A stretch of DNA of 64,000 bases, from NCBI RefSeq assembly GCF_037975245.1, contig NC_092569.1:17001501-17065500 (forward strand). Direction: 5' to 3'. The translations under genes and the position numbers were made by a program. The notes below the pieces were generated by a model, which was not told where the DNA came from, did not search any database, and was given only the letters and a program-made list of their open reading frames with translations. This DNA is from Apostichopus japonicus. Taxonomy: Eukaryota; Echinodermata; Holothuroidea; Aspidochirotida; Stichopodidae. Shown piece after piece: positions 8,367 through 24,924 of this stretch. Positions within the stretch are counted from its first letter, which is position 1. The number at the start of each line of letters is the position of its first letter.

Positions 8367-10282
8367 TCAAGAGATCGGTCGAATTTTCATCTCAACAGTT
8401 TGGGGATTGCAGTTATTATAATAGTAAGAAAAGATCCTCTCTCCGTTGCCTCCATTGTAGTCACCGTTGAGGTTTTCATAAGTACAAAGTGAATGACAGC
8501 TGCTTCCGTATTGGAAATAATAGCAATTATCACTGTAACAATTAGAGCACCAATGATTCGAGTGCCACCAGCCACTTCTGTGCTTCTCTGCACAGTCGAA
8601 GTTGCCACATGCGTCATTGTCTCGGTCATGCGTGCTGAATTGTTTTCCTTTGTTAACATAGAAATAATAACCTGCGAAGCAAAACAGCGAGGACCATCAG
8701 TGGTTAATACTTGGTCATTAAACAATACCTTAAGTATCCTGATATATTGCAAACTTTTGTTGGGACATAAAATAGGTTTTACAGTTGAAGAAGGAAAGAA
8801 GGGGGCGGGGGATTCACATTGATAGTGATTCATAATTCTTTTATAATGGAGTAATTCCGTGATCATTATATATTAATCATGTGCTGATTTATTTTGTTTT
8901 GCTCTTTATTTTAATCAGGCTTACTTTTAAAGGAGATGACGATTGACTTGGATTTAATTAAATGATTATTAATATAAAAAATAGTTTTGTCTACAGGAAA
9001 ATATTGTCTAATGATAATAAATATTATGATAAAATTAGTAAATATTGTGTTTGAATCTAAATGAGAACAAAATTTTGGGCTTTTCATTAACTAGTTTTTA
9101 GAAATTATTTTCACATTGTAATTTCAGTCTATGATTAGGGTTGTCTTTGTCTTCAAACACGGTGTGTGGCCTTCTTGGTATATTTGTTTCACATAACATA
9201 TAAGAAACATTATTATGTTAGTAGTGTGTGTTCCCTGCAAGCCCTTGGTATTTAATTTGTCTTTAAATTGTTCTGTGAAGATTTATTTCTTTTCCAAAAT
9301 ATTTACTGTTCTTAGACTGATCCTTGCTCATTCATCATGTGTTTTTTATCATCGGCTAGTCAGACTACTTCAATATTTTGTAAATGATACCAACGGTATT
9401 CAGCTGATTCGATGATATAGTTAATGATATTCGTTAATATCTAACCTTGAACTGTTTATTGAAAGTAACAGATCCAGATGGGACAATAATTTTTGCAATT
9501 GTTCACTGGTTCAAATCTTGTTCGAGACAAAACCATCTTTGTGTTTTATAAACATTATAACGCCAACACTAGCGAATGTAAAGATGGTTCTTCACATCAA
9601 TCGCAAGGTATTAAGATACTTGAATATACGTGGTATTATTTCTTCACTATTTCTATCTGTTTTGTGTTCTAATTAATGCGTGACATTATCATATATATCC
9701 AAGAAATGGATTTTAAACTTGAAAAATTATCTTTGTTAAGGTTTCTGTGTATTTAGAACATATTTTGTAGGTAATATTTATCATCAAGATGTATTGAAAC
9801 AGCTACGAACATTTTCTCATGAAGTTTATTGTGAACATACTAGTAATTTAAACATGACCTATTATCCAGGGCAATAAGCAAATGTCGAATATGGAACAAA
9901 CCTGTGGTTCCACTGTGAGTGCCCAGTTTATTCATTGTGTACTTGGTGCTTTCAGATTCGATTTGAAATTCTGTATACTCAGCATATTTAGCCGATCCAC
10001 TAGAAGTAGTGATGTCAAATCGAAGCTTGTAGTTCTTCTGATTCGTCAAGTAATGAAGCTTTTCATTTCCAAGCCATAAGTTCCTGTGGTCACCAAAACC
10101 GTCTCTGTACTCAGTCCAGTTTTGATAAAAGTTCGTAGAGCTATCAGTACGACGTTGAAACACCTGGAAGGATATCGAGTAAGAATATTAAAAGAAAGAT
10201 AATAGTGGGAGTCGTTGAAGCATGCTAACAGCCAAACTCAATCTAAGAATACCGCACGTCTACACACACACACGCATATATA

Positions 10283-10379
<97 letters not shown>

Positions 10380-23100: not shown

Positions 23101-24924
23101 TGTTTACACATTTGCTCACACACTTTCAGGTATTTCAACGTCGGACTGATGATTCTACTAGTTTCTATAAGGACTGGACATCTTACCAGGAAGGATTTGG
23201 TGACGGTGAAAACTTCTGGCTAGGTAATGAAAAGCTTCATTACATGACAAATCGGAAACATTACAAGCTTCGCTTTGACGTCACTACCTCCGACGGGACA
23301 CCTAAATATGCTGAATATCCAGAGTTTCAAGTTGAGTCTGAAAGCAACAACTACAGATTGAATAAACTCGGAGATAGGAGTAGTGGCAATACAGGTTTGT
23401 AAATGCTCTTCCTCTTCTCTTAGCCTTTCGGTTTCAAGAGTTTGGTGCGTATTATATTCATATAAAAGCACGTGCTGGCTGATCATCTGCAATGTTTATA
23501 GTTAATACCCCTTCTGTGCATAACAAATGTAATCAATTTCAATAAACGATATGTAACCATTATGTGTAATTCTTACGCTTCAAACATTAAACCCTGGAAG
23601 TACAGCTGTTTGAGGAAGAGCTAATATAGGTCAAGGGTCATGAGTTCGACACTGTTCTTTTCGTGTGAGAGAAAGCATTGGCACATTGTTTTAATTTTAA
23701 ACCGAGTTTTAATTTTACTTTCTCTCGATTTTTAACTGATAATGAATTAATACCAGTTATCCTACACAAAAGTTACATTTAACCGGTTCGGGAGCTAAAG
23801 TTAGAGTCATCATGTTAAAGGACGGGCTGATTATGTTAACACAGTAGCTTTGGAGTCTGCGTTAATTTAACATACAACCATGAACATAGCCTGAAGCAAT
23901 TTAAATCATCACAATATTAATACAGTTATAAGTGTTTAACATTTGGCAGCTTGATTGATTAAAGTTAAGACTCACAAAAGATTCGTTTTTCAATCATCTC
24001 GAAGCAGATGGAGATTAAACACTAAACAATTATGCTACATCAGATTCGTCGATAGCAAATTACAATCTTCACACAAACTCATGATCGGAAAACGACTACA
24101 GCAAACGGCTGACATTTTCACAAGTGAAACATGCTTACACACAAACACACACCCTGCTCTAATCATCAAACCGTACAAAACATACATGCATTATGAGATG
24201 CACACAAGAAAACTGACCTTACAAACATGATTCAATGGTCATTTGTATAGTATAATTAAGAATCCTATACTAGTAAGTCATTCGAATAGTTAGATGTTTC
24301 CTGTCCACTATGTTATACCAAAATGGTAAATACTGGAATTATTCATTCAAATTATCACTAAAACTATGCGTAGTTCTCACAGCCACGTAACTGATACATA
24401 TAGATCAAACAATACATTCAAATCTGAAATAATATGCTAATACATAGTACAACATATTTAAATAAGAATAAGAATACCACTGCGTAAATTGCAGTAATGT
24501 CGACTTAAGGTAAACTATAATCTAAACTTATAGCAATTAGAAAACATTGGGATTATTTGTTACTGCACGTTACCGTAATCAATGTACCAACCGACTTTCC
24601 TGTTTTTGTCTTTCAGGTCGTAACTTTGTTAATTACAACAGAGGAAAACAATTCAGTACACATGACCGAGACAACGATGCTTGCGGTAACTTCCACTGTG
24701 CACAGCTACATAGAAGCGGCTGGTGGCACTCTAATTATTATTGCTCTTATTGTTATAGTTACAATTATTGTCATTATTTTCAATACAGCAGCAGCTGTCA
24801 ATCAATTTGTACCGATGACAACCTCAATGGAGTCTACAACGGTGAACGGGGCACACAGATCTTCACTGACTATTATTACAACTGTAACATTGGATCCGTC
24901 GAAATGAAAATTCGACCTTCGTGA
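20195..24924 (+). CDS. Gene C: secreted FReD/TIL/EGF/FReD lectin-like protein, complete 8-exon model
   Basis: Exons: 20195-20260, 20352-20397, 20947-21116, 21591-21855, 22060-22274, 22376-22684, 23130-23394, 24617-24924. They total 1644 nt, giving 547 aa, all GT-AG, with the same phases as gene A. Exon 1 encodes 22 residues (MFVRMQRTNLVALTIIFAR...), hydrophobic and ending ACG|GTGAGG in phase 0. It has no similarity to the MELSVAV exon of A, B and F, and intron 1 is only 91 bp. The 46-nt linker exon reads [15 protein letters not shown]. Then come incomplete FReD1, TIL, TILa-like, EGF and full FReD2 ([20 protein letters not shown], Cys/Tyr-rich insert, [15 protein letters not shown]). No internal disablement. 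It is the only plus-strand member that looks intact, and it lies between the two duplication copies. Exon 1 is the least certain exon. Confidence 0.88.

Follow-up and report, generated by a model that had tools for sequence, protein, structure and literature searches.

What a gene might do with half of a fibrinogen-related domain (FReD) in addition to a complete one is the question raised by a 64,000-nucleotide stretch of contig 9 of the sea cucumber Apostichopus japonicus (C9:17001501-17065500, in a 35-contig assembly totalling 671,581,487 bp), referred to below as the window. An initial annotation had described two genes here, A and C, as encoding a FReD without its C-terminal part, a TIL/TILa pair, an EGF domain and a complete FReD. 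The gene models hold exactly as claimed in their reading frames: the eight minus-strand exons of gene A, between 16509 and 8367, join to 1650 nt, the eight plus-strand exons of gene C, between 20195 and 24924, join to 1644 nt, and in both all junctions are GT-AG with matching phases. Exon models and Pfam together bear out the claimed order, and the architecture of leader, linker, half FReD (FReD1), TIL, TILa/EGF and complete FReD (FReD2) is very probably real.

A Pfam scan of both products returned Fibrinogen_C in two stretches each (E 2.2e-83 and 2.9e-83), which makes A and C FReD proteins in the broad sense, together with TIL and TILa above the curated cut-offs in both. At E values up to 0.001, no VWD, C8, immunoglobulin superfamily (IgSF), collagen or FN3 family was found in either product, in agreement with the description of a TIL/TILa pair free of VWD and C8. 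The EGF assignment needs qualification. An EGF_3-like signal is present, scoring under the cut-off in full-length C (27.2 against 28.5 bits) and missing from the hits of full-length A; when exon 6 was scanned by itself, TILa plus EGF_3 came up in 12 of 12 copies, EGF_3 with E values of at most 0.01 and with 27.3 bits for the gene A exon. Because the two profiles overlap within exon 6, we dropped the plain, separate EGF domain and name the unit a TILa/EGF hybrid. The only solved molecule matched by this stalk at E values up to 0.001 is FCGBP.

In alignments with solved FReDs, FReD1 is covered over its subdomains A and B, and FReD2 over A, B and the beginning of P. FReD1 ends at the very exon boundary beyond which FReD2 goes on with its P exon. 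Concealment of such an exon (about 305 nt) between exons 4 and 5 is ruled out in both genes, the intron from FReD1 to TIL being too short at 237 nt in A and 204 nt in C. FReD1 is thus a true half domain at the gene level, as had been proposed. Exons 3 and 4 form a phase 1-1 module, as do exons 5 to 7.

FReD2, described earlier as a complete FReD, does contain A, B and P, but it is not an ordinary one. Between the WW and NLNG motifs of its P subdomain sits an insert of about 23 residues: in gene A, 25 residues separate WWH from the canonical cysteine, compared with 2 in another locus of the same genome, L002. The FReDs of ficolins, FIBCD1, techylectin-5A and tenascin have a short WW..C..NLNG stretch without an insert, and the same short stretch is seen in L002 and L003. 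The WW-NLNG segment presumably flanks or forms the ligand pocket in FReDs of the ficolin and techylectin-5A type. FReD2 retains the DxDND stretch, which we take to be a calcium-type site; the insert breaks the pocket segment, and CT replaces CH after the canonical cysteine, a position that, like DxDND, we assume to have a role in acetyl-group-binding FReD lectins. Exon 8 carries six extra cysteines, four inside the insert and two elsewhere, and a tyrosine-rich tract precedes its last cysteine. All eight of its cysteines are nearly invariant, each being present in 45-47 of the 47 aligned rows.

The residues between these cysteines behave differently. Comparisons of substitution rates (dN/dS, the ratio of nonsynonymous to synonymous rates; pN/pS, its counterpart from uncorrected differences; and tree-based change counts) were made after setting aside L009 and L011 (the window's gene A and third copy), L040, identical sequences and exons under 85% of full length, and for exon 8 also L002, L003, L004, L043, L046, L050 and a partial second match in L041; exons 3 to 8 were then represented by 20, 25, 29, 32, 29 and 47 rows, respectively. 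L096 entered none of the analyses. At pS below 0.6, the insert has a pN/pS of 0.90 (codon bootstrap 0.67-1.18) and the scaffold one of 0.23 (0.14-0.34); the tyrosine-rich tail stands at 0.76 and the cysteines at 0.01. Among closer pairs the values for insert and scaffold are 1.23 and 0.30 (pS below 0.3) and 1.43 and 0.62, with overlapping intervals (pS below 0.15). Tree-based counts give 0.94 for the insert, 0.26 for the scaffold, 0.64 for the tail and 0.01 for the cysteines. By these measures the insert appears as a cysteine-pinned, nearly free loop. Strong positive selection on the insert is unsupported by both pN/pS and the tree counts.

Pooled over paralogue pairs with dS between 0.02 and 1, dN/dS is 0.17 for exon 3, 0.26 for exon 4, 0.33 for exons 5 and 6, 0.29 for exon 7 and 0.40 for exon 8. 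As exons 3 and 4 have the lowest values, constraint on the half FReD is no weaker than on the remainder of the protein. Most splice sites are conserved at the in-frame position: at exon 4, 20 of 21 acceptors and 19 of 21 donors; at exon 5, 20 of 26 acceptors and all 26 donors; at exon 6, both sites in 27 of 27; and at exon 7, 21 of 21 acceptors and 14 of 21 donors. The acceptor of exon 3 was left unscored, since the match runs across it. Selection had earlier been argued from the intactness of the genes in both orientations. The range of pooled dN/dS (0.17-0.40) supports that conclusion, but the argument itself is weak, since dN/dS and the 58 exon 4-TIL pairs described below tell more.

The mature products of A and C contain 33 cysteines each, and the commonest counts for exons 3 to 8 are 3, 0, 11, 11, 0 and 8. 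The odd one lies in FReD1: of 27 copies counted, 21 have three cysteines in exon 3, and the extra residue is also present in the distant relative L089. An odd number per chain predicts an intermolecular disulphide, and whether the odd FReD1 cysteine links the chains into a dimer is, on cysteine counts, an evenly balanced matter.

These two genes are far from alone. In each genome-wide search the best 150 candidates were scored (of 591 for TIL, 1193 for exon 4, 655 for exon 8 and 2731 for Fibrinogen_C), and all copy numbers are lower bounds. With the TIL exon, 150 of the best 150 of 591 match, 131 of them on contig 9; with exon 4, the best 150 of 1193 include 46 with identities of at least 63%, every one of them on contig 9, the next ones lying at 59% and below. 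These 46 FReD1-type exons include one partial match (64 of 88 residues) and one with a stop. Most of the Fibrinogen_C matches among the best 150 of 2731 are likewise on contig 9. Sequence similarity and position place genes A and C in a large tandem family of fibrinogen-related proteins (FREPs).

Pairing of exon 4 with TIL was scored on contig 9 (131 of the 150 TIL and 140 of the 150 exon 4 matches). A TIL exon follows on the same strand, 0.35-2.65 kb downstream from start to start, in 45 of the 46 FReD1-type exons, against 13 of the 94 less similar exon 4 matches (at about 0.8 kb), a difference that takes the pairing of FReD1 and TIL beyond chance. Among those 13 only L089 was read; it shows FReD1-TIL-TILa/EGF-FReD2, in that order, at exon identities of 29-58%, with a P exon that lacks the insert. 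Seen from the other side, the best 30 TIL loci, the window's gene A and third copy among them, have exon 4 upstream in 26 cases and exons 3 and 4 both in 22, with neither exon within 1.5 kb in 4. TIL-TILa/EGF-FReD genes without FReD1 in the fetched stretch also occur, at L039, L042, L043, L044, L046, L047, L048 and L090; L043, on another contig (C20:8626196-8635105), has two TIL exons, each followed by a TILa/EGF exon, the first of them partial.

Six genes are of the C type as judged by the region of exons 1 and 2. Between C9:16888000 and C9:17036000, C-type genes on the plus strand and A-type genes on the minus strand alternate by position, giving head-to-head pairs. A neighbouring minus-strand array (C9:16170000-16721000) holds at least 33 Fibrinogen_C matches; L045, its only copy that was read, has A, B and P exons with no TIL between them and a stop in the P match.

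Within the family, stems and heads have different histories. In 16 genes with exons 3 to 7 readable, median pS is 0.18-0.19 for exons 3 to 5, 0.27 for exon 6 and 0.53 for exon 7, and pS in exon 7 correlates with that in exon 6 (0.77) far more closely than with that in exons 3 to 5 (0.05-0.27). The exon 7 tree splits off a second head type of seven genes with a support of 100/100. Exons 3 to 5 reject this head type as one clade in the approximately unbiased (AU) test, with p 0.0012 for six genes and 0.0001 for all seven; L022, placed with the second head type by the tree, is absent from the six-gene test and included in the seven-gene one. Because exons 3 to 5 reject a clade that exon 7 strongly supports, the trees indicate that FReD2 heads have been exchanged between FReD1-TIL stems, by conversion or unequal crossing-over. 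The composite genes as one clade by exon 7 do not appear in the tree, yet such a clade is not rejected (AU p 0.19). As for the origin of the half domain, FReD1 groups with the TIL-less FReD gene L045 (88/69; 89/95 in a second tree) and not with FReD2. Internal duplication of one FReD within the gene is disfavoured by the tree, with a clade of FReD1 and FReD2 not rejected (AU p 0.089).

From these observations we derive a model in which the genes form a germline-diversified, lectin-like FREP family with a variable FReD2 head, a stalk and FReD1 as a structural module, a reading that stands about evenly between right and wrong on the sequence evidence. FReD2 would be the recognition head of a secreted protein. 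The extra cysteines would pin the insert while the residues between them vary almost freely, and each copy would therefore show a different binding surface; recognition by this variable head could go either way. FReD1, being without P and hence without a pocket, would serve as a structural module and not as a ligand binder, its third cysteine linking two chains into a dimer, and the TIL, TILa and EGF units would form a disulphide-rich stalk. Gene duplication, together with the swapping of FReD2 heads among genes, would diversify the copies. By analogy, the role is likely to be opsonin- or agglutinin-like recognition in the coelomic fluid or gut.

More tentatively, and with a likelihood well below even, the genes could make up a germline recognition repertoire of a design not recognised before, in which a covalently dimerised half FReD sits on a TIL/TILa stalk, the pocket is replaced by a pinned hypervariable loop, and stems and heads are reshuffled by ectopic recombination among dozens of tandem genes. 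It would amount, in an equally tentative analogy, to an antibody-like split of constant stem and variable loop on a fibrinogen fold, and an isoform joining exon 4 to exon 8 could possibly complete FReD1 with the same variable loop.

Several observations weigh against recognition by a diversified head. Excess amino-acid change in the insert is found at column 71 only (32 against 1, p 0.007 uncorrected, among 119 columns). With the insert near neutral on average and a single excess site, the pattern is compatible with relaxed constraint. Between recent pairs (pS below 0.12) pN/pS ranges from 0.37 to 1.14 by exon, a weak constraint from which it follows that part of the array may be decaying; such values may simply be those expected of young duplicates or of partial decay. 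Of 56 matches to exon 8, 3 contain a stop, including that of the window's third copy. With regard to the dimer, exon 3 has two or four cysteines in place of three in 6 of 27 copies, and L045, a FReD gene that has a P exon of its own, shares the odd cysteine. A fold prediction of exon 8 alone reached a mean predicted local distance difference test score (pLDDT) of only 31.6, and no use was made of it. Finally, the evidence on these genes is from DNA sequence.

The main rival is a structural, mucus or adhesive protein of the FCGBP/mucin type or like the echinoderm footprint proteins, in which the stalk, the free cysteine and the tyrosine- and cysteine-rich insert would cross-link a matrix or gel and the variation of the insert would be relaxed constraint. 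We rank it so because FCGBP is the sole solved molecule matched by the stalk, and consider it unlikely but worth serious attention. The odd cysteine count, the near-neutral average of the insert and the tyrosine-rich tract ahead of the last cysteine would all suit such a protein, and TIL, EGF and VWD occur in sea star footprint proteins (PMC9382459), in whose paper, however, fibrinogen goes unmentioned in the main text. A and C also lack VWD and C8, the parts tied to multimerisation in such proteins, and the nearly invariant cysteine frame with variable neighbours, placed at the presumed pocket, also speaks against it.

The two remaining alternatives concern how the exons are joined. Skipping of exons 5 to 7 as a phase 1-1 cassette would connect subdomains A and B of FReD1 with the P exon that FReD2 uses and give a complete single-FReD protein, FReD1 being a half domain in the long isoform alone. 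In both A and C the phases of exons 4 and 8 fit and the skipped product is open, FReD1 stays under purifying dN/dS, and the relative L045 has A, B and P exons with no TIL between. Symmetric modules would give that phase compatibility anyway, however, and the end of FReD1 (LESNA) is unlike the residues leading into P in FReD2 or L045; we hold P-exon sharing to be improbable. Least probable of all, and hardly credible in our view, is that two adjacent genes have been read as one, a FReD gene minus its P exon and a TIL-EGF-FReD gene, spliced apart or dead. Genes of the second kind without FReD1 do exist (the eight loci above and the window copy at 42807-50793), and some copies contain stops or frame breaks. 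Against this, the FReD1-TIL intron measures just 237 nt (A) and 204 nt (C), the junction sites are mostly kept (exon 4 donor 19/21, exon 5 acceptor 20/26), 45 of 46 FReD1 exons keep their TIL neighbour, and L089 preserves the order at 29-58% exon identity.

The initial annotation had further stated that no described family has this domain order. That statement survives within the open-access literature searched, where neither the order of half FReD, TIL/TILa and FReD nor the pinned insert was found; subscription journals and database annotation lay outside the scope. What is already known is the FREP expansion in A. japonicus, and we add to the earlier account that A and C belong to a species with such an expansion. 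FREP-A and FGLA, holothurian proteins among the nearest in kind, are known as single-FReD proteins, which sets them apart from A and C by their description. In this same species, FReD genes are greatly expanded, clustered mainly on one linkage group and up-regulated in visceral regeneration (PMC5638244), and the clustering on one chromosome is matched here by contig 9, among the listed matches. The accessible part of that report gives no domain order, half FReD or variable insert, and TIL and EGF are absent from its main text. FREPs are reported from the coelomic fluid of Holothuria tubulosa (PMC12119288), a FREP is induced by lipopolysaccharide in the gut of Holothuria glaberrima (PMC2702171), and A. 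japonicus FGLA was the most up-regulated protein two days after evisceration (PMC11050598); for FREP-A (P19477; sea cucumber fibrinogen-like protein A) and FGLA, both FReD proteins, expression is linked to immunity or regeneration (PMC2702171, PMC11050598, PMC4793329). Published findings on A. japonicus or other holothurian FREPs cannot be tied to these particular genes.

Among proteins elsewhere, A and C have the TIL-TILa pair in common with FCGBP, zonadhesin and von Willebrand factor (VWF). In the type D assembly of zonadhesin, tectorin, VWF and FCGBP, however, the order is VWD-C8-TIL(-TILa), whereas in A and C there is neither VWD nor C8 and the pair is joined to FReDs instead. With ficolins, FIBCD1, techylectin-5A and tenascin they share the FReD by sequence, DxDND being kept in FReD2, but they have neither the collagen-like region that precedes the FReD in ficolins nor the tenascin-type EGF repeats and FN3 that precede it in tenascin; in two sea urchins, no tenascin-like protein was found, according to the accessible text of PMC11401434. 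Molluscan FREPs, as in Biomphalaria, likewise form a large, diversified FReD family (PMC7588048). The molluscan type has one or two IgSF domains with a fibrinogen domain. A and C contain no IgSF domain, and what varies in them, unlike in molluscan FREPs, is a FReD loop pinned by cysteines, along with the heads that are exchanged.

If the proposed diversification is true, a subset of sea cucumber FREPs would be receptors built for diversity, with a fixed stem and a disulphide-pinned variable loop at the binding site. Echinoderm immunity would then gain a molecular place in which to seek specificity, how holothurians recognise microbes without antibodies would become directly testable, and the fold would offer a new scaffold for loop display.

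The exons of both genes and the other copies in the window are listed in Table 1. The first exons of A and C are both hydrophobic, and from this leader the products are presumed to be secreted. Intron 1 measures 91 nt in gene C and 3437 nt in gene A, where it holds two 78-bp tandem copies (15579-15733, 98% matches). The first exon of gene C is doubtful and the weakest element of both models. While the frame of its earlier 547-aa product stands, the in-frame ATG proposed for it is missing in five fetched sister copies, and as only the ATG 12 nt further in is common to all six, a product of 543 aa is likelier.

Table 1. Exons of genes A and C and further family copies, in window coordinates
Feature	Position	Strand	Content
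Gene A exon 1	16429..16509	-	Start codon and hydrophobic leader; like exons also at 38749 and 1057
Gene A exon 2	12946..12991	-	Short linker, phase 0 to 1
Gene A exon 3	12225..12394	-	FReD1 subdomain A with odd third cysteine
Gene A exon 4	11688..11952	-	FReD1 subdomain B; no P exon after it
Gene A exon 5	11236..11450	-	TIL domain
Gene A exon 6	10775..11080	-	TILa overlapping EGF_3-like unit, then FReD2 subdomain A
Gene A exon 7	9902..10163	-	FReD2 subdomain B
Gene A exon 8	8367..8671	-	FReD2 P subdomain, apparently cysteine-pinned variable insert, stop codon
Gene C exon 1 (model of the initial annotation)	20195..20260	+	Likelier start codon at 20207; weak support
Gene C exon 2	20352..20397	+	Linker
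Gene C exon 3	20947..21116	+	FReD1 subdomain A
Gene C exon 4	21591..21855	+	FReD1 subdomain B
Gene C exon 5	22060..22274	+	TIL
Gene C exon 6	22376..22684	+	TILa/EGF_3 hybrid and FReD2 subdomain A
Gene C exon 7	23130..23394	+	FReD2 subdomain B
Gene C exon 8	24617..24924	+	FReD2 P subdomain with insert, stop codon
Third copy	30888..38749	-	Matches to all 8 exons; in-frame TAA at 31031-31029 in exon 8
TIL-TILa/EGF-FReD gene without FReD1 matches	42807..50793	-	Exon 8 match stops early
3' end of a further copy, same order, running past the window	62283..64000	-	Exons 2 to 8 match in L040

Given its in-frame stop, the third copy is probably broken or shortened. In the FReD1-less gene that follows it, retroelement open reading frames lie on the plus strand between exons 7 and 8 (43523-48170), with an endonuclease-like start recognised by eye and a zf-RVT match under the cut-off, which suggests a LINE-type (long interspersed nuclear element) insertion in the last intron. 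Upstream of the same gene, a leader exon relic on the minus strand (60471-60542) is without the usual start codon and donor. On the plus strand, a lone, gapped remnant of a P exon is found at 5111-5173, and the stretch 26810-26865 resembles, by eye, the start of gene C exon 3 and is perhaps a decayed copy.

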